From: Streptomyces phaeolivaceus
GTDB taxonomy: Bacteria > Actinomycetota > Actinomycetes > Streptomycetales > Streptomycetaceae
Assembly (NCBI RefSeq): GCF_009184865.1
Contig: NZ_CP045096.1
Span: 3,100,001 to 3,164,000 of the forward strand
DNA length: 64,000 bases
Direction: 5' to 3'
The number at the start of each line of letters is the position of its first letter. Position 1 is the first letter of the stretch. The position numbers and the translations under genes were made by a program. This document shows positions 34,166 to 45,372 of the stretch, one piece after another. Under the pieces are notes generated by a model that was not told where the DNA came from, did no database searches, and saw nothing but the letters and a program-made list of their open reading frames with translations.

Positions 34166-35647
34166 GTGACATTCACGCCGGAGGGCAGCGCGCCACCGAC
34201 GGCACCACCCGCGGGCCCGGTCCCCGCCGTGCCGCCACAGAACTCGCCCGCGTCCGGGACGCCCCGGCCGGCTCCGTCCCCGGACGGCGGCCCGCCCCGC
34301 CGGACGGCGTTCGCGGAGGGCGTCGACCAACTGCGTGCCGCCGCGACGACCGAGCCTGGCCGGCTGCGCATCATCGGTGCCCTTCTCGCCCTCCTGGTCG
34401 TGGCGTTCGGCTCCGTCACCGCCTGGCAGATGACCGACCGCGCCGCCGCCGCCGACGACGTACTGCACGGCAGCCAGCCGCTCAGCTCGGCCGCGGCGGA
34501 GATCTACAGTTCGCTGGCCGCCGCCAACACGGCGGCCTCCAGCGGTTTCCTCGCCGGCGGGCAGGAGACCGAGGAGTCGCGCGAGGACTACGAGCGGGAG
34601 ATGGGTGAGGCCGCGAAGCAGTTGGCCTTCGCCGCGACCGCGTCCGAGTCCGGCTCCGACTCCGAGCAGCGCATCGCCGAACTGAACAGCCTGCTGCCCG
34701 AGTACAAGGGCCTGGTGGAGCGGGCCCGCGCCAACAACCGGCTGGGGTACCCGCTGGGCGGCGCCTATCTGCGGTACGCCAACGACAAGATGCAGAAGAT
34801 GCTCGGCGAGGCACAGAGCATCTACGACAACGAGAACGAGCGGCTCCGTGACGACTACGCGGACGCCACCTCGTACCCGTGGGCCGCGATCGGTCTCGGT
34901 GTCATCGCCATCGGCGGCCTGGTCTGGGCGCAGCGCCGCAACTACCGGCGCACCAACCGGGTGTTGAACCACGGCCTGGTCGCGGCGACGGCCGCCTCCA
35001 CCGTCGTGCTGCTGTGGCTGGCCGGAGGTCACACCGTCGCCCGCTCGGGGCTGAACGAGTCCTATGAGCACGGTGTGCGGTCGCTGACCGTCCTGAACGA
35101 CGCGCGCATCGCCTCCCTCACCGCGCGCGGCAACGAGAACCTGACGCTGATCAGCCGGGGCGCGCAGACCACCGAGATCATGGTCGACGGAAAGCCCACG
35201 GACGTCGACGAGTTCGACAACCAGTTCAAGGTGGAGATGGCCGGGCTCACGAAGCATCTGGCCGCCGCCGAACGACTGGCCGACGACGACAGCGGAGCGA
35301 AGCCCGTGCGGGCCGCCGGCGCGAGCATGGAGGCGTGGCAGAACCGGCACGCGAACGCCCGCGCCGCCGACAACAGGGGCGACTACCAGTGCGCCCTCGC
35401 CCAGGTGATCGGCGGCAGGTCCACGTCCGAGTGCCCGGACGGTGACAAGCCGACCGGCGAGTGCTTCGACGAGGTCGACAAGAACCTGGGCATCGCGAGC
35501 GCGTACGAGAAGAACGAGTTCAAACTGGCGGCCGAGGGCGGCCGTAGGGCGATGCTGGGTCTTCCCGTCGGTGCCGCCGTACTGGCCGTGCTGGGCGCGG
35601 CGGGCGCGGTGCTGGGCATCGGACGCAGGCTTTCGGAGTACCGGTGA
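34166..35647 (+). CDS. glnX: GlnX-like four-helix membrane sensor protein
   Basis: A 493-aa membrane protein. A Pro-rich cytoplasmic N-terminus (1-65) is followed by transmembrane helices at about 68-88, 237-255, 268-288 and 467-487, enclosing two extracytoplasmic helical domains (89-236 and 289-466) rich in Ala, Glu and Gln, like chemoreceptor ligand domains. The second domain has cysteines in DYQCALA, SECPDG and GECFD. GTG start with GGAGG directly upstream. In mycobacteria GlnX couples the binding protein GlnH to kinase PknG for control of glutamate metabolism; the same order here (glnX, glnH, then pknG) supports the name. First gene of the cluster. Confidence 0.78.
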   Translation: MTFTPEGSAPPTAPPAGPVPAVPPQNSPASGTPRPAPSPDGGPPRRTAFAEGVDQLRAAATTEPGRLRIIGALLALLVVAFGSVTAWQMTDRAAAADDVLHGSQPLSSAAAEIYSSLAAANTAASSGFLAGGQETEESREDYEREMGEAAKQLAFAATASESGSDSEQRIAELNSLLPEYKGLVERARANNRLGYPLGGAYLRYANDKMQKMLGEAQSIYDNENERLRDDYADATSYPWAAIGLGVIAIGGLVWAQRRNYRRTNRVLNHGLVAATAASTVVLLWLAGGHTVARSGLNESYEHGVRSLTVLNDARIASLTARGNENLTLISRGAQTTEIMVDGKPTDVDEFDNQFKVEMAGLTKHLAAAERLADDDSGAKPVRAAGASMEAWQNRHANARAADNRGDYQCALAQVIGGRSTSECPDGDKPTGECFDEVDKNLGIASAYEKNEFKLAAEGGRRAMLGLPVGAAVLAVLGAAGAVLGIGRRLSEYR

Positions 35648-36717
35648 CGGCGGCGGGAGGAGGCACGGTGGAAGGGCTCGCGATGAAAGCGGTACGGCGC
35701 CTGCGGGCCGGTCTCAGTGGCTGGGGCGGCGTGGGCGCGATGGCGGTCCTCTGCGCACTGACCCTGGTCTTCGCCCTGGTGCTGCCGGTGAAGGGCACCC
35801 GCGGCGAGGGCGCGACGGCCACCGGCGGCCAGGGGACCGCCCGGGGCACCCAGGCTCGGGCGGACAAGTGCGCCACGATGAAGGCCCCGGAGAACCAGAG
35901 TCTGCGGCCCTCCTCCGACGCGTCCGACAAGGCGATCGAGCGCATCGAGAAGAACGACTTCATCACGGTCGGCGTCGACCAGAACAGCTACCGCTGGGGC
36001 TATCGCGACCCGAACAGCACCAACGACGACGCCCAGCTGGAGGGCTTCGACATCGACATCGCGCACCGCATCGCCGAGGAGATACTCGGCGACCGGACGA
36101 AGGTGCGTTTCAAGGCGATTCCGACCAGCCGACGCATCCCCGCGCTCCAGGAGGGGGAGGTCGACATGGTGGTCCGCACGATGACGATCAGTTGCGAGCG
36201 CATGAAGCAGGTCGCCTTCTCCCAGCCGTACTTCGAGACCGGGCAGCAGATCCTGGCCCCCAAGTCGACGACGATCGAGGGCTACGGCAAGACGCTGGCG
36301 GACAAGAAGATCTGCACGGCGGCCACTTCCACGGCACTGTCCACCCTCCAGGACGGCAAGGACACGGGGAAGCTGCCCGACTCCACCGACATCTCCCTGA
36401 CCGTCCCCAACCAACTCGACTGCCTGGTACGGCTCCAGCTCGGCCAGGTCGACGCCGTGGTCACCGACGGCGCCCTCGCCGCGAGCCAGGCGGCGCAGGA
36501 TCCGACCGTGAAGCTGGTGGGCGAGCCGTTCACCACCGAGTACTACGGCGTGGCGATGAACAAGGACGCGACGGATCTGGTACGCCGGGTCAACCAGGTG
36601 CTGGTGGACTATCTCAAGGACGGCTGGAAGACCTCGTACGACACCTGGCTGTCCGGGACGCTCGGCAACGACTCGGCGAACTCCCGGCCGCCTTCCCCAC
36701 AGCAGTACAGCGACTGA
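35644..36717 (+). CDS. glnH: GlnH-like amino-acid-binding protein, membrane anchored
   Basis: A 357-aa family 3 solute-binding protein. GTG start overlaps the glnX stop (GTGA). One hydrophobic segment at about 28-49 anchors it; there is no lipobox Cys, unlike mycobacterial GlnH. The binding domain (about 95-340) has ITVGVDQNSYRWGYRDP, LEGFDIDIAHRIAEEILG, VDMVVRTMTISCERMKQVAF and SQPYFETGQQIL, typical of glutamate/aspartate/glutamine binders. No permease or ATPase is adjacent, so it is a sensor rather than an importer component. Presumed to present ligand occupancy to the GlnX-like protein. Confidence 0.85.
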   Translation: MTAAGGGTVEGLAMKAVRRLRAGLSGWGGVGAMAVLCALTLVFALVLPVKGTRGEGATATGGQGTARGTQARADKCATMKAPENQSLRPSSDASDKAIERIEKNDFITVGVDQNSYRWGYRDPNSTNDDAQLEGFDIDIAHRIAEEILGDRTKVRFKAIPTSRRIPALQEGEVDMVVRTMTISCERMKQVAFSQPYFETGQQILAPKSTTIEGYGKTLADKKICTAATSTALSTLQDGKDTGKLPDSTDISLTVPNQLDCLVRLQLGQVDAVVTDGALAASQAAQDPTVKLVGEPFTTEYYGVAMNKDATDLVRRVNQVLVDYLKDGWKTSYDTWLSGTLGNDSANSRPPSPQQYSD

Positions 36718-36758
36718 CGTACAGGACCGACGTACCAGGACCAGACGTACAAGGACCG
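36717..36758. repeat. three short direct repeats after glnH
   Basis: GACGTACAGGACC, GACGTACCAGGACCA and GACGTACAAGGACC follow one another between the glnH stop and the next gene. Confidence 0.75.
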
Positions 36759-36798
36759 CTTTCCACAGACGGACACCGACAGCAGCGAGAGGTGATCG

Positions 36799-38124
36799 AT
36801 GGGCGTCGCGGGATCCACGGGGCCGGTGATGGACCGGGACGATGTGGACCGTGCGCTCGCGCGGCTCGGCGCGGAGCACGAGGCCATCGAGACCTCGCTG
36901 CTCGCCCTCCAGGACCACGCGGGCCGCAGGCTGCTCGAAGGCGCCGCGCTGACCGGCGTCACCAAGGAGCGCTGGACGTCCGCGGACGCCTCGATCACGT
37001 TGCTGTGGGCGTACTTCGACGCGTACACGGACGCGCTGCGCTCCGCCCGGGAGATCCGTTCGCGGCGCCGCTGGTCCAGCCGTGAGGACCTGGTGGAGCT
37101 GACCGAGCTGCTGCGCGGCGAGGCCGTCACGGTGGCCGGCTCCGCGACGGCGATGGCCAACGCGCCGACGCTCCAAGGCGGGAGTCGGCTCAGCGAACAG
37201 TTCTCGCTGGTCAGCCTCGTGGACCGGATGAACGACCTGTACGCGTCCTCGCTGGACATGGTGGTGGCCGCCGACGCGGTGTGGTCCGCGCTGCCCGCGC
37301 GGATCGATTTACTGGCCGCCGAGCTCCAGCGCACCCGCCAGCTCGCGCACTCCGTGGGCGTACGCCCCGGCGAGCACCCGGCCGGCGACGATCTGGAGCG
37401 GATCACCCGCACCCTGACCCGCCTCCGTGAGCAGGTCGTCTCCGACCCGCTGGCCTTCTGGGTCCCGGCACCGGGCAGTTCGGCGCCCGGCGGCGGCCGT
37501 CCGGACACCACGACGTACGACCGCGAGGCGCGCGCCCTGGAGGACGTACGGCGGGAGATCGACGCCGTGCTGACGGTCCGGCAGGACGCCGAGTCGCGGT
37601 TGGTGAAGCTGCGGGACGTGCTCAGCCGCGCGGACCGTACGCTCGCCGAGGCGCGCAGCGCGCGCGGTGAGGTGCTGGCGAAGATCGCCGCGACCGAGGT
37701 GCCCGTGGTGAGCGGCCCGCCGACGGTGCTGCAGGAGCAGTTGGCGATGGCGGCGGAGTACCGCAGACACGCGCAGTGGCACCGGCTGTCCCCTCTGCTG
37801 GAGTCCCTGGAGCAGAAGGCGGACGACGAACTGCTGCGCGCCCGGGAGTCGTTGACGGCGGTGACCGCGCCGCTGGCGGTCCGCGCGGAGCTGCGCGGCC
37901 GGCTCGACGCGTACAAGGCGAAGGTCGCCCGGCACGGCTTCGCGGAGGACTCGCTGCTGGTCGAGCGGTACGACGCGGCGCGCCGCATGCTGTGGAGCGC
38001 CCCCTGCGACCTGCGGGTCGCCGAGATGGCGGTGCTGCGCTACCAGCACGCGGCGGTCGAACTGCTGGGCGGTTCGGTGCCCGCCCCGCGCGCGCCCCAG
38101 GACCGGCGGGAGGAGGAATCGTGA
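36799..38124 (+). CDS. cytosolic coiled-coil protein of the PknG cluster, unknown function
   Basis: A 441-aa soluble, mainly helical protein with no signal peptide or membrane segment. Long charged helices at about 10-60, 85-130 and 255-350 (such as EDVRREIDAVLTVRQDAESR and KLRDVLSRADRTLAEARSA) suggest a coiled coil. The C-terminus (about 360-425) has ELRGRLDAYKAKVARHGFAE. ATG 36799 with GAGAGG 6 nt upstream; its stop overlaps the kinase start (GTGA), so the two are translated together. Likely a scaffold or regulator of the kinase; I recognise no enzymatic motif. Confidence 0.82.
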   Translation: MGVAGSTGPVMDRDDVDRALARLGAEHEAIETSLLALQDHAGRRLLEGAALTGVTKERWTSADASITLLWAYFDAYTDALRSAREIRSRRRWSSREDLVELTELLRGEAVTVAGSATAMANAPTLQGGSRLSEQFSLVSLVDRMNDLYASSLDMVVAADAVWSALPARIDLLAAELQRTRQLAHSVGVRPGEHPAGDDLERITRTLTRLREQVVSDPLAFWVPAPGSSAPGGGRPDTTTYDREARALEDVRREIDAVLTVRQDAESRLVKLRDVLSRADRTLAEARSARGEVLAKIAATEVPVVSGPPTVLQEQLAMAAEYRRHAQWHRLSPLLESLEQKADDELLRARESLTAVTAPLAVRAELRGRLDAYKAKVARHGFAEDSLLVERYDAARRMLWSAPCDLRVAEMAVLRYQHAAVELLGGSVPAPRAPQDRREEES

Positions 38125-40820
38125 GTCAGACCGAGGAGAACCCGACGAGCGAGGAGGCCGCGCGGCAGCCGTGTCAGCGGCCCGGCTGCTCGGGCGGCTA
38201 CGAGGACGTGGGCGGCGGCGAGCTGTACTGCGACGAGTGCGGTCTGGCGCCGGTCGTCTCGGCGAGCGGCATGGTCAACTCGCCGCCCACCGGTATCACC
38301 GGGGGCGGCCGGGGCTCGCGCGGCTCCGGTTCCGGCAGTTCGCGCTCCTCGCGCTCCTCGCGCTCCTCACGGACGTCCGCGCGCTCCTCGCAGTCCCGGC
38401 GCTCGGTCTCGGGCCGTCTCTCGCGGGCCCTGTCGGGCAGGTCGACGGGCCGCTCGGTGTCGGTGCGCAGCTCCGGCAAGACCGCCGGTTCCTCGGGTCG
38501 GGCGCGGCTGGGCGTCGGTCTCGTCCAGGTCCCGGACGTACCGCGCCCGGACCCGCGTTCGATGGTGCTGGAGTCCGCGGAGGTGCCCGAGCGGAAGCGG
38601 TTCTGCTCGCGCTCCGACTGCGGGGCGCCGGTCGGCCGGGCGCGCGGTGAGCGGCCGGGGCGCACGGAGGGCTTCTGCACCAAGTGCGGCCATCCGTACT
38701 CGTTCGTGCCGAAGCTGCACTCGGGCGACATCGTGCGCGGCCAGTACGAGGTCGTGGGCTGTCTCGCGCACGGCGGTCTGGGCTGGATCTATCTGGCCAT
38801 AGACCGGGCGGTGTCGGACCGCTGGGTGGTGCTGAAGGGTCTGCTGGACACCGGCGACCAGGACGCGATGGCCGCCGCGATCTCCGAGCGCCGCTTCCTC
38901 GCCGAGATCGAACACTCCAACATCGTCCGCATCTACAACTTCGTCGAGCACCTCGACCAGCGCACCGGTTCGCTGGACGGGTACATCGTCATGGAGTACG
39001 TCGGCGGAAAGTCGCTGAAGGAGATCGCCAACGGCCGTCGCACGACGGACGGCCGCCGCGATCCGCTCCCGGTCGAGCAGGCGTGCGCGTACGGCATCGA
39101 GGCGCTGGAGGCGCTCGGGCATCTGCACAGCCGCAATCTGCTGTACTGCGACTTCAAGGTCGACAACGCGATCCAGACCGAGGACCAGCTCAAGCTGATC
39201 GACATGGGCGCGGTGCGCAGGATGGACGACGACGAGTCGGCCATCTACGGCACGGTCGGCTACCAGGCGCCCGAAGTCGCCGACGTGGGCCCGTCGGTGG
39301 CCTCCGACCTGTACACGGTCGCCCGGACGCTCGCGGTCCTCACCTTCGACTTCCAGGGGTACACGAACGTCTTCGTGGACTCCCTGCCCGACCCCGACAA
39401 CATCGAGGTCTTCCGCCGGTACGAGTCCTTCTACCGGCTGCTGGTACGTGCCACCGACCCCGACCCGGCCCGCCGGTTCGCCTCCGCGCAGGAGATGTCG
39501 GAGCAGCTGACGGGTGTGCTGCGGGAGGTCGTCTCGCTCCAGACGGGTCGGGCCCGCCCCGCCATGTCGACGATCTTCGGCCCGGAAGTGCGGGTCACGG
39601 ACACGGAGTTGTTCGCGAAGCTGGACGGCGAGGTGTCCCGGCTGGGGACCCGGGTGATTCCGGTGGGGAAGGGGCCGTGGCGAGGCAAGGGGGCGGCCGG
39701 GAACGGGAGTTCGCCCGCCACGCCGGCCGTCGGTAACGGATCTTCGCCGTCCGGTACGCCCGCGCCGCTGACCGGGGGCGCGGCCGTGCCCGCCCGGCTC
39801 ACCCGGGAGCTGGACACCGCCGCCGCGGCTCTCGCGCTGCCCGTCCCGCGCGTGGACCCGGGGGACCCGAACGCCGGGTTCCTGGCGGGGCTCATGACCT
39901 CCGCGCCGACCGAGCTGATCACGGCGCTGCACTCGGCGCCCAGCGGCTCGCTGGAGCTGCGGCTGCGGGAGCTGCGGGCCCGGCTGGAGATGGCCGAGTT
40001 CACCATCGCGCTGGCCACCCTGGACGCCCTGGAGCGGGACCACCCCGACGACTGGCGGGTGGTCTGGTACCGGGGCGTGGCCGCGCTGGCCACCGGCGAC
40101 CACGAGAACGCCGCGCTGTCCTTCGACGCCATCTACGACGCCTTCCCCGGCGAGCCGGCCCCCAAGCTGGCCCTCGGCCTGTGCGCGGAGGTGCTCGGGC
40201 AGCTGGACAACGCCGCCGAGTACTACCGTCTGGTGTGGACGACCGACCCGAGCTTCGTCAGCACCGCGTTCGGGCTGGCCCGGGTGCGGCTGACCGCCGG
40301 GGACCGGCAGAACGCCGTCCAGGTCCTGGAGTCCGTACCTGAGGCGTCCATCCACTACACCGCCGCCCGGGTCGCCGCCGTACGGGCCCGGCTCAGACAC
40401 CGCACGGAGGCGACGCCCGTGCCGTCCGGGGCCGCTCCGTCGGGAACCGTGCCGTCCGGGGCCTCGCCCTCCGCGACCGTGCCGTCCGGGGCCGTCCCGG
40501 ACGCACCGTTCCTGGACGATCTGACCGCTGCCGCCGGGCAGATCGAGGCGCTCGGCGGGTACGGTCTGGACGCGGTGCGCCGTGAGCAGTTGTCCACAGA
40601 GGTCCTTGGCTGCGCCCTGGACTGGGTACTCTCCGGTAGCCAGGGTGCCGCGCCCCCGGCGGCCGAGCGGGTGCTGCTCGGCAGCGCGCTGGACGAGCGT
40701 GGCCTCCGCTTCGGACTGGAGCGGTCGTACCGCACTTTGGCCCGGCTCGCCCAAGGCGGCGAGGAGAGGATCGACCTGGTGGAACGTGCCAACCGTTACC
40801 GCCCCCGGACGTGGGTGTAG
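38121..40820 (+). CDS. pknG: PknG-like serine/threonine protein kinase with zinc ribbons and TPR domain
   Basis: An 899-aa soluble kinase. Order: Zn ribbon 1 (CQRPGCSG and YCDECG, about 15-40), a Ser/Arg repeat region (about 70-135), Zn ribbon 2 (CSRSDCGAPVG and FCTKCGHPY, about 160-195), kinase domain (about 205-460), linkers, then TPR-like helices (about 600-780). Motifs: P-loop LAHGGLGWIYLA, Lys239 (VVLKG), catalytic loop YCDFKVDN with Asp344 and Lys346, metal Asp361 in DMG, and GTVGYQAPE. The HRD motif is replaced, as in PknG of mycobacteria (kinase class without RD-type activation). Near 770-800 are VPSG repeats. PknG adjusts 2-oxoglutarate/glutamate flux by phosphorylating an FHA protein; an FHA protein is encoded downstream here. 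Confidence 0.9.
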   Translation: MSQTEENPTSEEAARQPCQRPGCSGGYEDVGGGELYCDECGLAPVVSASGMVNSPPTGITGGGRGSRGSGSGSSRSSRSSRSSRTSARSSQSRRSVSGRLSRALSGRSTGRSVSVRSSGKTAGSSGRARLGVGLVQVPDVPRPDPRSMVLESAEVPERKRFCSRSDCGAPVGRARGERPGRTEGFCTKCGHPYSFVPKLHSGDIVRGQYEVVGCLAHGGLGWIYLAIDRAVSDRWVVLKGLLDTGDQDAMAAAISERRFLAEIEHSNIVRIYNFVEHLDQRTGSLDGYIVMEYVGGKSLKEIANGRRTTDGRRDPLPVEQACAYGIEALEALGHLHSRNLLYCDFKVDNAIQTEDQLKLIDMGAVRRMDDDESAIYGTVGYQAPEVADVGPSVASDLYTVARTLAVLTFDFQGYTNVFVDSLPDPDNIEVFRRYESFYRLLVRATDPDPARRFASAQEMSEQLTGVLREVVSLQTGRARPAMSTIFGPEVRVTDTELFAKLDGEVSRLGTRVIPVGKGPWRGKGAAGNGSSPATPAVGNGSSPSGTPAPLTGGAAVPARLTRELDTAAAALALPVPRVDPGDPNAGFLAGLMTSAPTELITALHSAPSGSLELRLRELRARLEMAEFTIALATLDALERDHPDDWRVVWYRGVAALATGDHENAALSFDAIYDAFPGEPAPKLALGLCAEVLGQLDNAAEYYRLVWTTDPSFVSTAFGLARVRLTAGDRQNAVQVLESVPEASIHYTAARVAAVRARLRHRTEATPVPSGAAPSGTVPSGASPSATVPSGAVPDAPFLDDLTAAAGQIEALGGYGLDAVRREQLSTEVLGCALDWVLSGSQGAAPPAAERVLLGSALDERGLRFGLERSYRTLARLAQGGEERIDLVERANRYRPRTWV

Positions 40821-40823
40821 TTG

Positions 40824-42140
40824 ATGTCCCAGATGCCCCAGCCGACCGCGCTGACGAAGTGCCCGATCTGCGAGTGGCCCCTCGCCTCGGAGGACCGCTT
40901 CTGCGGTGCGTGCGGCCATGACCTCTCGGCGGTGCCCGCGCCGCCGGAGGACCAGCCGACGATCACCATGAACGGGACGGCGGGCGAGGCGCCCGACGAG
41001 GCCGCGTCCGTGGCCTGGCCCCTCGCCTCCGAGCCCAGCTCCGACACGCCCCCGCCGGTGGTCCGCCCCACCGACATCCCGGGCACCGACTCCGGCGGCG
41101 GCGAACTGCCCGGCGCGGGGCGGGGCGTACGGTTCGACCGGCCCCGCGAGCCCGACGAGTACCCGCTGGCCGCGCCCCTGCCGCCGGACCCGCGCACCGC
41201 CGACCTGGCCACCCCGCCGGCCGGTACGAAGCTGTGCGTGGCCTGCCGCGCGGGCCATGTCGACCGGGACGGCTACTGCGAGAACTGCGGGCACGCCCAG
41301 CCGCGCGAACGCGACCACATGGAACTGGAGTTGGGCGCGGTCGCCGCGGTCAGCGACCGGGGCCTGCGGCACCACCGCAACGAGGACGCGTTCGCGATCT
41401 CCTCGACGGCGCTGCCCGACGGCTCCCCCGCGGTCGTCGCGATCGTCTGCGACGGCGTCTCCTCCGCGACCCGCCCCGACGACGCCTCGCTCGCCGCGGC
41501 CCGCGTCGCCAACGAGACGGTGCTGGACTCCCTGCCGCGCGGCACCCACCCGCAACAGGCCATGCACGACGCGATCATCGCCGCCGCGGGCGCGGTCAAC
41601 GCCCTGGCGGAGGAGCCGGAGACGGCCCAGGAGCACGCCCCGCACCAGAACGCGCCGGCCTGCACCATCGTCGGCTCGATCATCACCCCGAGCCTGCTCG
41701 TGGTCGGCTGGGTCGGCGACAGCCGGGCCTACTGGGTCCCGGTGGACCGCGGCGCGCCCCCGGCCCGGCTCACCGAGGACGACTCGTGGGCGGCACAGAT
41801 GGTGTCCGCGGGACTGATGAACGAGGCCGAGGCGTACGCCGACGAGCGCGCCCACGCGATCACCGGCTGGCTCGGCGCGGACGCGTACGAACTGGAGCCG
41901 CACACCGCTTCCTTCAAGCCGGACCGGCCGGGTGTAGTGGTGGTGTGCACCGACGGACTGTGGAACTACGCGGAGGCCGCCGAGGACATGGCCGAGGCCG
42001 TGCCGCCGGACGCGGCCGGGCGACCGCTGCACTGCGCGCAGGTCCTGGTCGGCCGGGCGCTCGACGGCGGGGGCCACGACAACGTAACAGTGGCCGTCCT
42101 GCCGTTCCCGGCCCCTCCTCAGGGGGCAGGATCGGCCTGA
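40824..42140 (+). CDS. PP2C-family Ser/Thr protein phosphatase with zinc ribbons
   Basis: A 438-aa metal-dependent phosphatase. N-terminal zinc ribbon Cys13/16/27/30 (KCPICEWPL, FCGACGHD), an acidic Pro-rich linker, and a second ribbon near 138-157 (CVACRAG, YCENCGHA). The PP2C domain begins near 172 with SDRGLRHHRNEDAF; VAIVCDGVSS supplies a metal Asp, WVGDSRAYW, VCTDGLWNY and GGHDNVTVAVL complete the set. It reverses kinase action, most likely that of the PknG-like kinase just upstream. ATG at 40824 follows the kinase TAG after 3 nt (a TTG at 40821 is also open). Confidence 0.92.
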   Translation: MSQMPQPTALTKCPICEWPLASEDRFCGACGHDLSAVPAPPEDQPTITMNGTAGEAPDEAASVAWPLASEPSSDTPPPVVRPTDIPGTDSGGGELPGAGRGVRFDRPREPDEYPLAAPLPPDPRTADLATPPAGTKLCVACRAGHVDRDGYCENCGHAQPRERDHMELELGAVAAVSDRGLRHHRNEDAFAISSTALPDGSPAVVAIVCDGVSSATRPDDASLAAARVANETVLDSLPRGTHPQQAMHDAIIAAAGAVNALAEEPETAQEHAPHQNAPACTIVGSIITPSLLVVGWVGDSRAYWVPVDRGAPPARLTEDDSWAAQMVSAGLMNEAEAYADERAHAITGWLGADAYELEPHTASFKPDRPGVVVVCTDGLWNYAEAAEDMAEAVPPDAAGRPLHCAQVLVGRALDGGGHDNVTVAVLPFPAPPQGAGSA

Positions 42141-42249
42141 GCACCCGGCCCACGAGGACCGGAGGGGACCGGTCCGGAACGGGCACGACAGGCATCACCC
42201 CACGTGCCGTGGGGCCAACAGTGGGGCTGCTAGGGGGATCTGAGTAGGC

Positions 42250-43596
42250 ATGGCCAATTTCTCGAAGTCGAACGTGCCGCGGTTCTCGGTCGAGGTGTAC
42301 CAGAACGAGTACCTGCCCGAGGGTGGCCGCGAGGTCAACGCCATCGTGACGGTCAGCGCGACGGGGGGCGGCACCATCGGCAGCGCGGTCGCCGCGCCGC
42401 ACCTCTACTCGCCAGGCCAGGGCCCGTCCGCCGCCGTGGCGCTCATGGTCGACTGCTCGGGGTCGATGGACTACCCGCCGACCAAGATGCGCAACGCCCG
42501 GGACGCCACGGCCGCCGCGATCGACACCCTGCGCGACGGCGTCCACTTCGCGGTGATCGACGGCACCCATGTGGCCCGGGAGGTCTACCCGGGCAACGGC
42601 CGGCTCGCGGTCGCCGACTCCGCCACCCGGGAGCAGGCCAAGCAGGCGCTGCGCAGGCTCAGCGCGGGCGGCGGCACCGCCATCGGCACCTGGCTGAAGC
42701 TCGCGGACCGGCTGCTCGCCTCGGCGGACGTCGCCATCCGCCACGGCATCCTGCTCACCGACGGCCGCAACGAGCACGAGTCGCCCGAGGACTTGAAGGC
42801 CGCGTTGGACGCCTGTGCCGGACGGTTCACGTGTGACGCGCGTGGAGTGGGCACCGACTGGGAGGTGAAGGAGGTCACGGGGATCGCCTCCGCGCTGCTC
42901 GGCACCGCCGACATCGTCGCCGACCCGGCCGCCCTGTCCGCCGACTTCACGCAGATGATGGAGGCGGCCATGGGCAAGGAGGTCGCGGACGTCGCCCTGC
43001 GACTGTGGACCCCGGTCGGTACGCAGATCAAGTTCGTCAAGCAAGTGGCACCCACGGTCGAGCAGTTGACCGACCGTCGCACGGAGGCCGGACCGCGTGC
43101 CGGGGACTACCCGACCGGGTCGTGGGGTGACGAGTCCCGCGACTACCACGTGTGTGTCGAGGTGCCGTCCGCCGACCTCGGCCAGGAGATGCTGGCCGCC
43201 CGTGTCTCCCTGGTGATCCCGCAGCCCGACGGCACCGTCCAGAACCTCGGCGCCCAGGGTCTGGTGAAGGCGGTGTGGACCGACGACATGGTCGCGTCGA
43301 CGTCGATCAACCCCCAGGTCGCGCACTACACGGGCCAGGCCGAACTGGCACAAGTCATCCAGCAGGGTTTGGATGCCCGCAAATCAGGTGATTTCGACGG
43401 GGCAACGGCCAAGCTGGGACGAGCCGTTCAGCTCGCCAGCGCGTCGGGGAACGCGGATACTGCGAAACTGCTTGCGAAGGTGGTGGACGTGGTCGACGCG
43501 GCGACAGGTACTGTGCGACTGAAGGCGAAGGTCACGGAGGCCGACGAGATGACTCTCGAGACCCGGTCCACAAAGACTGTTCGTGTAAAGAAGTAG
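42250..43596 (+). CDS. von Willebrand factor A domain protein
   Basis: A 448-aa cytosolic protein. Residues about 60-235 form a vWA domain with an intact metal-ion-dependent adhesion site: DCSGSM (Asp68, Ser70, Ser72), GGGTAIG (Thr about 142) and LLTDGRNEH (Asp about 176). The rest (about 245-448) includes beta-rich sequence and a helical TPR-like end (LDARKSGDFDGATAKLGRAV). Such cytosolic vWA proteins act as metal-dependent docking factors in phosphosignalling clusters. 109 bp after the phosphatase; same strand and cluster. Confidence 0.88.
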   Translation: MANFSKSNVPRFSVEVYQNEYLPEGGREVNAIVTVSATGGGTIGSAVAAPHLYSPGQGPSAAVALMVDCSGSMDYPPTKMRNARDATAAAIDTLRDGVHFAVIDGTHVAREVYPGNGRLAVADSATREQAKQALRRLSAGGGTAIGTWLKLADRLLASADVAIRHGILLTDGRNEHESPEDLKAALDACAGRFTCDARGVGTDWEVKEVTGIASALLGTADIVADPAALSADFTQMMEAAMGKEVADVALRLWTPVGTQIKFVKQVAPTVEQLTDRRTEAGPRAGDYPTGSWGDESRDYHVCVEVPSADLGQEMLAARVSLVIPQPDGTVQNLGAQGLVKAVWTDDMVASTSINPQVAHYTGQAELAQVIQQGLDARKSGDFDGATAKLGRAVQLASASGNADTAKLLAKVVDVVDAATGTVRLKAKVTEADEMTLETRSTKTVRVKK

Positions 43597-43668
43597 GCAG
43601 ACCACACCGGCCCGTCGCGGCCACAGGAACCGGCCGTGAGGCCGGAAAGGAGAGGGGGAAGCGCCGAC

Positions 43669-45372
43669 ATGCCGACCTGCCCGAACGGACACCAGTCGGG
43701 TTCCGACGACTGGTGCGAGGTCTGCGGTCACCGTATGGCCGGTGCCGTACCCCCGCCGCCTCCACCGCCGCCCCCGGGCGCCGGTTACGGATACCCGCCG
43801 CCCGGCTCCCCTCCCCCGCCTCCCGGTGGGGGCGGTCCCGGCGGCCCCGGGGGACGCCCGCACCTCGCCGCCGAGCCGGAACTCTGCCCGCAGTGCCGCA
43901 CGCCCCGCGAGGGCGGCGCGCCCTTCTGCGAGGAGTGCCGGTGGAACTTCCTGACCAACACCGCGACGACGTACACCCCGGCCGCGCCCCGGTCGGGGCC
44001 GCCCGGTCCCGGCGGCCCCGGCCCCGGTCAGGGTCCCGGCCCCGGCGGGAACCCGGCGCTCCGGTTCCAGCAGCAACAGCCGCCTCCGCCGTCCTTCGGC
44101 GGCGGTGACGCGTACGACTACCAGAGCTCCCGCCCCTCCCAGATGAACCGCCCCGCCGAACCGATCCCGCCGGGACCGTTCGGCGGCGATTCGTCGGGTC
44201 CGGGCGGCCCCGGGGGACCGGGCGGAAACGGTGGGTTCGGCGGTCCTGGTGGACCCGGAGGTCCTGGTGGCCCCGGTGGACACGGCGGTCAGGGTCCGGG
44301 TGGACCGGGCCGTCCGGGTGGGCCCGGGGGTCCTGGCGGCCCCGGTGGCCCGCCGGGGCCCGGGGGTTCCTCCGGGTTCGGCGGTGGGCCTTCGGGCCAG
44401 CCCGGCCGTCCCGGTCCGGGGCAGCCCGGCCAGTCGGCGTTCGGCGGCGATCCTTCACGCCCCGGCCCCTCGGGCTTCGGCGGCGACCCTTCGCGGCCCG
44501 GCCCCTCCGGCTTCGGCGGCGACCCTTCGCGGCCCGGCCCCGGCGGCTTCGGCGACCCCTCCCGGCCTGTTCCTCCGCCGCCCGGTCCCACACCGGGCGG
44601 TCAGGGTCCCGGTGGACCCGGTGGACCCGGATTCCCCGGTGGCCAAGGCCAGGGCGGCGGACCGGGCGGCCCCGGTGGGGCACCGCAGGGCTACCAGCAG
44701 GCGGGGGCGTCCGCTCCGCCGGCCTTCCCGCAGGAGACCCGGCGACCGCAGCCCGGGAACCCCGGCGGACCGGGTGGACCCGGCCCCGGTCCCGGTGGTC
44801 AGGGTCCCGGTGGCGGACCCTCCTTCGGTGGCGACGACGACTGGGTGATCTCCCCGCCGTCGACCGGCCCCGGCGGTCAAGGTGGACCCGGTGGACCCGG
44901 TGGCTACGGCTACCCGCAGCCCGGTGCCACCCAGGCCCCGCCCGGCCCCGCGTACCCGCAGGCGCCGACGACCTGGAGCGCGACCATCGGCCCGGACCGC
45001 GACTACTTCATGGCGATGATGCAGCGCTCGGGCCCCGAGGCGGCGGGCCTGAACCTGCCCGCGTACTCCCCGGAGCAGCGGCGCGCCCTCACCGGCAACC
45101 AGATCACCATCGGACGCCGCCGGCACTCCACCGGCGACACCCCCGACATCGATCTGTCGGTGCCGCCGGAGGACCCGGGCGTCTCGCACCAGCACGCGGT
45201 GCTGGTGCAGCAGCCCGACGGCAGCTGGGCGGTCGTCGACCAGAACTCCACGAACGGCACCACGGTCAACGGTTCCGAGGACCCCATCCAGCCCTTCGTC
45301 CCGATCCCCCTCCAGGACGGGGACCGGGTCCACGTGGGCGCGTGGACGACGATCACGATCCGCCGGGGCTGA
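43669..45372 (+). CDS. FHA domain protein with zinc ribbons and Gly/Pro-rich linker
   Basis: A 567-aa protein. Zinc ribbons: PTCPNGHQSGSDDWCEVCG at 2-20 and LCPQCRTP with FCEECRW near 75-105. From about 110 to 430 lies a low-complexity region of GPGGPGG-type and Pro-rich segments including three near-identical PSRPGPSGFGGD units. The C-terminal FHA domain (about 470-567) shows ITIGRRR, VSHQHAVLV and NSTNGTTVNG, the phosphothreonine-binding loops. Likely the reader of phosphorylation by the PknG-like kinase. ATG 43669 chosen over upstream GTG 43636 because AGGAGAGGGGG precedes it and the protein then starts at the ribbon. A strong hairpin ends the cluster. Confidence 0.88.
   Translation: MPTCPNGHQSGSDDWCEVCGHRMAGAVPPPPPPPPPGAGYGYPPPGSPPPPPGGGGPGGPGGRPHLAAEPELCPQCRTPREGGAPFCEECRWNFLTNTATTYTPAAPRSGPPGPGGPGPGQGPGPGGNPALRFQQQQPPPPSFGGGDAYDYQSSRPSQMNRPAEPIPPGPFGGDSSGPGGPGGPGGNGGFGGPGGPGGPGGPGGHGGQGPGGPGRPGGPGGPGGPGGPPGPGGSSGFGGGPSGQPGRPGPGQPGQSAFGGDPSRPGPSGFGGDPSRPGPSGFGGDPSRPGPGGFGDPSRPVPPPPGPTPGGQGPGGPGGPGFPGGQGQGGGPGGPGGAPQGYQQAGASAPPAFPQETRRPQPGNPGGPGGPGPGPGGQGPGGGPSFGGDDDWVISPPSTGPGGQGGPGGPGGYGYPQPGATQAPPGPAYPQAPTTWSATIGPDRDYFMAMMQRSGPEAAGLNLPAYSPEQRRALTGNQITIGRRRHSTGDTPDIDLSVPPEDPGVSHQHAVLVQQPDGSWAVVDQNSTNGTTVNGSEDPIQPFVPIPLQDGDRVHVGAWTTITIRRG

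Follow-up and report, generated by a model that had tools for sequence, protein, structure and literature searches.

What does a PknG-type kinase act on when its gene stands in one cluster with genes for a phosphatase, a vWA protein, and an FHA protein? This arrangement is found at positions 34166-45372 of the window, the stretch of 64,000 nucleotides (nt) from the 10.2-Mb genome of Streptomyces phaeolivaceus (G000) that was analyzed here. Seven genes on one strand encode GlnX, GlnH, an all-helical protein (CC), the kinase PknG, a PP2C phosphatase, a vWA protein, and an FHA protein. The cluster may be the full form of a PknG system, of which the GlnX-GlnH-PknG textbook operon appears to be a reduced form. 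Its features are as follows.

34166..35647, + strand: GlnX, membrane signal-transduction protein; GTG start; NF058618, 471 bits (cut-off 250)
35644..36717, + strand: GlnH, family-3 solute-binding protein; 4-nt overlap with glnX; PF00497, 4.7e-29, 101 bits
36799..38124, + strand: CC, 441-amino-acid all-helical protein outside Pfam and NCBIfam families at cut-off
38121..40820, + strand: PknG, rubredoxin-kinase-TPR Ser/Thr kinase; PF16918, 1.6e-82, 277 bits; PF16919, 4.2e-29, 101 bits
38172..38243, + strand: additional N-terminal four-Cys zinc ribbon of PknG
40821..42140, + strand: PP2C phosphatase with two N-terminal zinc ribbons; PF13672, 4e-11
42250..43596, + strand: vWA-beta-sandwich-helical-bundle protein (ArnB-like) with an intact metal ion-dependent adhesion site (MIDAS)
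43429..43593, + strand: C-terminal PF18571 region of the vWA protein, with its conserved L-E-T-x-S-T-x-T-V end
43636..45372, + strand: FHA protein with two zinc ribbons, a long Gly/Pro linker, and a C-terminal FHA domain; PF00498, 9.7e-16; the true start is likely the ATG at 43669
45103..45339, + strand: FHA domain; PF00498, residues 490-568, 58 bits

The seven genes recur as a unit

An initial annotation of the window proposed a same-strand cluster of seven genes. The cluster is present, every gene except CC has a family, and the catalytic and binding residues are kept. The account of genes mostly overlapping held for two of the six junctions (glnX-glnH and CC-pknG) and failed for the other four; the spacings along the cluster are -4, +81, -4, 0, +109, and +39 nt. 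The glnX and glnH genes adjoin on the pknG strand, a predicted operon on the basis of gene order. The unknown coiled-coil protein noted between sensor and kinase is CC, to which no Pfam or NCBIfam family matches at cut-off. The AF2 model of CC has a mean pLDDT of 90, sequence and fold searches of the PDB gave nothing convincing (best fold match E=0.57), and relatives at 96% identity occur in Streptomyces.

Gene neighborhoods were surveyed in two samples. PknG_TPR was detected at E<=1e-15 in 110 of the 295 genomes of a class sample, and 100 loci were fetched around PknG matches to give 101 loci with the window. Of the other Streptomyces-group genomes, 29 had a match, and 24 of these are represented by their main locus; the remaining loci were picked to span families and paralogues. 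The named-record sample consists of the 80 top-ranked loci among at least 591 matches to a seven-gene PknG, a similarity-ranked choice that leans to that type. Genes were called with home-built profiles. Among the class-sample loci, all seven genes share a strand in 47 and are spread over both strands in 1; 4 lack only a detectable CC, 16 are three-gene loci, 24 are of other composition, and 9 are truncated. The corresponding named-record counts are 46, 0, 7, 11, 6, and 10. All seven genes are thus found in 48/92 untruncated class-sample loci and 46/70 untruncated named-record loci, and in 25/25 of the main Streptomyces loci examined. PknG in L011 and CC in L003 are split over two frames.

The set also occurs in Micromonosporaceae, Thermomonosporaceae, Nocardioidaceae, Kribbellaceae, Cellulomonadaceae, Intrasporangiaceae, Kineosporiaceae, and a record named Acidimicrobiaceae. 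One surveyed locus each was found in Mycobacterium sp. OAS707, Nocardia colli, and Kibdelosporangium banguiense. Because the set recurs in other families and in the Acidimicrobiaceae record, the cluster is not a product of chance, and the proposal of a conserved unit of sensor, kinase, eraser, reader, and vWA protein was upheld. Six of the seven genes are present in the cyanobacterium Phormidium sp. LEGE 05292 (Cyanobacteriota; L146) with a nearly identical vWA tail, which may reflect either transfer or old age. A vWA search of a plasmid collection returned one match, in a chromosome-sized record. The usual order in family f66 is CC-PknG-PP2C-vWA-FHA-GlnX-GlnH. Family f67 has a separate PP2C-vWA-FHA block (L194-L199, L201) with PknG absent or divergent beside it, and some f67 genomes with the block away from PknG have PknG elsewhere. 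The L201 vWA match contains stop codons. L173 comes from a record labeled Streptomyces sp. SID13031, a name that may be wrong, as the locus clusters with Kribbella in the PknG tree.

PknG was present in 71/72 genomes with vWA (E<=1e-30), 72/75 with CC (E<=1e-12), and 108/109 with GlnX (E<=1e-25) in the class sample. The PknG-less exceptions are G300, which has vWA and GlnX fragments, and for CC G300, G418, and G446. The Fisher p-values are tiny and were computed without regard to shared ancestry. At the same cut-offs, neither vWA nor CC was found in 33 PknG genomes.

Conserved residues and zinc ribbons

PknG has the rubredoxin (PF16919), kinase (PF00069), and PknG_TPR (PF16918) domains, each above cut-off in the Pfam search, and it matches PDB structure 2pzi (540 bits). 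K194, D291, N296, and D308 (L040 numbering), which we take to be the catalytic residues, are invariant in 12/12 aligned homologues. PADLOC matches to the kinase look like generic kinase matches and were set aside. The zinc ribbons in the kinase, the phosphatase, and the FHA protein were overlooked by the initial annotation. The extra PknG ribbon is present in 65 of the 70 locatable PknGs accompanied by PP2C, vWA, and FHA; the five PknGs lacking a full ribbon include four f67 rows that keep three of the four Cys. It is absent from the 9 located f3 loci without this trio and was found in one Pseudonocardiaceae three-gene locus (L174). These counts leave out 71/181 loci in which the anchor was not located. 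A second, divergent PknG-like kinase occurs in Streptomyces (L002, G000:C2:6199000-6218500, and L027-L036). A vWA protein is found in 7/11 of these loci, and some of these proteins end with a zinc ribbon, not the usual tail.

The PP2C residues D189, D211, and D378 are kept in 124/124 homologues and D420 in 123/124; these are presumably the metal-binding aspartates. All four Cys of the second PP2C ribbon, which abuts the catalytic domain, are kept in 124/124. The vWA protein has the ArnB fold (vWA, beta-sandwich, and C-terminal helical bundle) over its entire length. Its MIDAS motif, DxSxS...T...D, is invariant in the 33 sequences of alignment A5, which agrees with the initial annotation of a metal-site vWA protein. 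The C-terminal S-T-x-T is kept in 106/124 homologues above 500 bits. The S. rimosus phosphoprotein SRIM_014225, described as VWA-containing, and S. coelicolor SCO2666 may or may not be members of this cluster. In the FHA domain, S72 and N95 are each kept in 118/118 homologues and R49 in 112/118, and a loose pattern applied to stop-to-stop frames located a ribbon-like motif in 116/118. The GlnH residues Arg147, Thr162, Arg169, and Asp250 look conserved and Trp232 appears changed when the ligand residues named in the passages seen of PMC6069109 are placed by pattern, without the Mycobacterium tuberculosis sequence, on the f3 GlnH alignment. The aligned Streptomyces GlnH rows (window 35644-36717) lack the lipobox-like Cys of other lineages.

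The three-gene operon appears to be a reduced form

Family f3 is probably Mycobacteriaceae-like, as judged from its position in the PknG tree. In the midpoint-rooted trees, the f3 loci without the PP2C-vWA-FHA trio form the sister group of the Nocardia, Mycobacterium, and G423 loci that have all seven genes; another three-gene group falls within Pseudonocardiaceae. A single three-gene clade of f3 plus Pseudonocardiaceae was rejected in the approximately unbiased (AU) test (p=0.0106; quick trees on 48/128 rows, with the groups named after the first tree was viewed). By parsimony and this result, the textbook operon appears to have been derived by reduction, on two or more occasions. CC, PP2C, vWA, and FHA had been placed outside the mycobacterial scheme. 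This is correct insofar as they are missing from f3 and most Pseudonocardiaceae three-gene operons examined, and it does not hold for single loci of f3 (L095), Nocardia, and Mycobacterium (L128, L140), where the extra genes are present. G423 holds both operon forms (L095, L096, L210). K. banguiense, N. colli, and Mycobacterium OAS707 have a second PknG without PP2C in the ~4-kb stretch viewed. Because both forms coexist in genomes, duplication followed by loss is as likely as loss in place.

PknG-less Streptomyces suggest two modules in the cluster

PknG is missing from three genomes of the Streptomyces genus group, G300, G418, and G446. CC, PP2C, and FHA lie side by side in all three, where tblastn with the window proteins detected CC (96-99% covered), PP2C (77-100%), and the FHA domain. 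The same search found no GlnX, GlnH, or vWA at the G418 and G446 loci and a short C-terminal PknG match in G418. G300 retains remnants of GlnX (20% covered), GlnH (25%), PknG (14%), and vWA (88%); GlnH was sought in the three genomes at these loci only. The G418 PP2C and FHA protein each showed one of their two ribbons, and both were found in G300 and G446. The initial annotation's description of the unit as self-contained is not supported as it stands, because CC, PP2C, and FHA remain here in the absence of kinase, sensors, and vWA. Variation of vWA, FHA, and PP2C independent of the kinase and sensors, which it had named as the outcome that would count against it, was seen in part, in these three genomes and some f67 genomes. 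CC had been considered as an adaptor between sensor and kinase, an idea weakened by its outlasting both.

A CC+PP2C+FHA tree with Kitasatospora and Streptacidiphilus as the outgroup needs three changes (5-95% bootstrap range 3-3), two of which are forced by well-supported branches. A single clade of the three genomes was rejected (AU p=1.5e-5), and the sequence trees put the number of independent loss events in Streptomyces at two or more. The count of three was dropped, since the test does not reject a pairing of G418 with G446 (AU p=0.255), which is compatible with one event. One deletion cannot explain the pattern because lost and kept genes alternate along the operon. If four of seven genes are lost at random, the same set is lost again in 1 of 35 cases, a figure that ignores shared selection. 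The pattern can be read as two modules, sensors-kinase-vWA and CC-PP2C-FHA. The f66 loci L049 and L050, which lose vWA alone and keep all else, caution against pressing this division too far.

TelA-linked loci and GarA

In 27/27 loci of one well-supported PknG clade, three same-strand genes lie upstream of glnX; they encode a TelA relative, a small protein, and an AAA+ ATPase. This arrangement was seen in none of the surveyed loci outside the clade. An example of the resulting ten-gene cluster is L114:2376-5629, in which the small protein has 174 amino acids. Two TelA proteins scanned with Pfam match PF05816 at 309 and 313 bits, and the AAA+ ATPase match in L123 is weak (47 bits). TelA was detected in 13/36 checked genomes and was not found at E<=1e-15 in 23/36. 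The flanks of 30 chosen loci were scanned, and some of the resulting clusters are antisense open reading frames.

A GarA/OdhI relative was detected in 26/26, 29/30, and 10/11 genomes of three checks that included PknG-less ones. A Thr-rich N-terminal motif of the T-T-S or S-T type is kept in nearly all rows shown. The G000 relative at G000:C2:1321687 has a T-T-S-T motif and is a candidate PknG substrate. The operon FHA protein was rejected as the local GarA because this separate relative is encoded elsewhere; among the rows shown, a T-T or T-S motif after the second FHA-protein ribbon occurs only in Streptomyces. GarA relatives with an N-terminal zinc ribbon of their own were noted in L202, L203, L188, L190, and L192 and not in f3 rows. 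By eye, this ribbon is present in 18/18 rows labeled full-cluster (one, G249, is actually incomplete) and 0/11 three-gene rows, with nine rows not located; a pattern scored 12/18, and the six missed rows have Tyr for Phe. The ribbon was dropped as a marker of the seven-gene cluster because Winogradskya, Cellulomonas, and a Microbacteriaceae genome have the cluster and no ribbon was seen. It was also unseen in G214, where the locus is truncated.

A proposed phospho-switch and its alternatives

The cluster is proposed to be the full form of a PknG system that drives a bacterial ArnAB-type phospho-switch, with FHA, PP2C, and CC also serving another partner, a reading that we judge to have an even chance of being correct. 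Amino acid binding to GlnH would cause GlnX to act on PknG, which would phosphorylate threonines of the C-terminal vWA-protein region. Kept close by its ribbon, the FHA protein would then bind the vWA phosphothreonine in a tight complex, by analogy to the binding of ArnC-phosphorylated ArnB to ArnA, and PP2C would reopen the complex. That FHA, PP2C, and CC outlast kinase and vWA suggests at least one other partner for them. GarA, whose gene lies elsewhere, would be a separate PknG output, and the mycobacterial three-gene operon would have retained the sensor-kinase branch only. The output of the complex can only be guessed at, metabolic or membrane-stress control being candidates. The historical claim, that PknG originally drove an ArnA-ArnB-like switch reset by PP2C and of one design with the archaeal nutrient switch, not GarA alone, and that the mycobacterial and corynebacterial system is a remnant after this output was lost at least twice, is more tentative and falls a little short of even.

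Several points weigh against this proposal. Both the phosphorylation and the vWA-FHA binding are predictions from sequence. Residues 430-439 of the vWA protein are a confident helix in the AF2 model, and its conserved end may be structural instead of a phosphosite. The phosphatase is a PP2C, and the archaeal one is a PP2A. The link between vWA and PknG is confounded by shared ancestry in the sample. Six PknG+CC genomes have no vWA at E<=1e-30 (G221, G240, G326, G334, G342, and G472; some of their loci run into the end of a contig), and vWA is therefore dispensable to PknG. FHA and PP2C are not dedicated to vWA, because both survive without it. Finally, G418 and G446 may share one loss.

One alternative is that CC, PP2C, and FHA are an independent phosphatase-reader module with another kinase, from which PknG, vWA, and the sensors borrow as a plug-in. 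It fits the finding that exactly these three genes were left adjoining in three genomes by at least two events. CC in PknG-less genomes of the class sample is, however, limited to those three, the PknG-free f67 trio sits in genomes with PknG elsewhere, the kept genes may just be lost more slowly, and PP2C and FHA in G418 have one ribbon found of two; we consider the plug-in rather unlikely. PknG could instead act on GarA as in mycobacteria, with PP2C as the GarA phosphatase and FHA and vWA as scaffolds. The near-universal GarA motif among the rows examined and the GarA ribbon in many full-cluster genomes agree with such a pathway, but GarA and its motif persist in the three PknG-less Streptomyces and other PknG-less genomes, the ribbon does not strictly track the cluster, and mycobacteria regulate GarA without these genes. 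This is an unlikely explanation of the locus.

Equally improbable is a TerY-P-like switch that responds to metal or toxic-anion stress. The ribbons and MIDAS would detect metal, the triad of kinase, phosphatase, and vWA protein would pass the signal to TelA and the AAA+ ATPase, and amino acids would only tune the response. The upstream genes in 27/27 loci, the ribbons in kinase, PP2C, and FHA protein, and the match of vWA, PP2C, and a ribbon kinase to the TerY-P definition, as given in the passages seen of PMC11090510, speak for it. The TelA link is nevertheless confined to one clade, the 23 TelA-less genomes include the full-cluster G023, G162, G369, and G386, the kinase ends in a TPR with its ribbon at the N terminus, and no TerY-named model matched. 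That the genes are co-located without joint function is highly improbable given the parallel losses and a gene content that holds across families and extends to an acidimicrobium and a cyanobacterium. The phospho-switch proposal leaves the initial interpretation right in outline and partly supported; the ArnAB likeness, the TelA extension, the two-module structure, and the reductive history had been missed. Wild strains in which precisely one half of the unit has been lost offer a ready test set.

Comparison with known systems

TagQRST is the periplasmic input of the type VI secretion system (T6SS) threonine phosphorylation pathway. This PpkA/PppA/Fha1 pathway likewise has a kinase, a PP2C, an FHA protein, and a vWA domain in the passages seen (PMC3224232), but its vWA domain is part of the transmembrane kinase and its output is a secretion system. 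No T6SS genes were noticed in the fetched flanks of the cluster, in which no search was aimed at them. TerY-P systems are defined, in the parts available, by vWA, PP2C, and a zinc-ribbon kinase linked to tellurite resistance (PMC11090510). The cluster resembles them in combining these proteins and zinc ribbons in one operon, with TelA near in one clade. It differs in that the PknG ribbon and rubredoxin are N-terminal and the TPR C-terminal, whereas TerY-P has a C-terminal ribbon, and in the added FHA reader and solute sensor. None of the Pfam or NCBIfam matches up to E 0.01 is a TerY-named model.

The GlnX-GlnH-PknG-GarA/OdhI system of Mycobacterium and Corynebacterium is, in the passages seen, a three-gene operon with amino acid input and a downstream FHA protein (PMC6069109, PMC9769921, PMC8546545). 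Sensor and kinase families and the three-gene core are the same. The f3 loci are without CC, PP2C, vWA, and FHA, except L095, and the operon FHA protein in the window differs from GarA in having two ribbons. The word phosphatase has 0 occurrences in the main texts of PMC6069109 and PMC8546545. PknG work in the portions seen of the cited papers was done in three-gene lineages. Should the full form be older, Streptomyces may be the easier place to study PknG outputs, the route from GlnX to PknG, and the reason for the zinc and TPR domains. No description of the seven-gene set was seen in the papers listed by the literature searches, some of them covered in passages and most subscription journals lying outside the searches.

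The proposed mechanism resembles that of the Sulfolobus ArnA-ArnB-ArnC/D-PP2A archaellum network, which shares a TPR kinase, a phosphatase, and a nutrient signal. The likeness of an actinobacterial protein, 4FX5, to ArnB is already published, as seen in passages of PMC6509490 and PMC12852372, whose main texts contain PknG 0 times. The putative partner of the vWA protein resembles ArnA in having a zinc ribbon and an FHA domain, a likeness at the level of domains. The conserved S-T-x-T end of the vWA protein is suggestive of the ArnB phosphothreonine region. In contrast to the archaeal network, the cluster has a PknG-type bacterial kinase with an extracytoplasmic sensor and no archaellum. The proposal, if true, would link a bacterial amino-acid-sensing kinase with the ArnAB switch of archaea, as well as with TelA in one clade.

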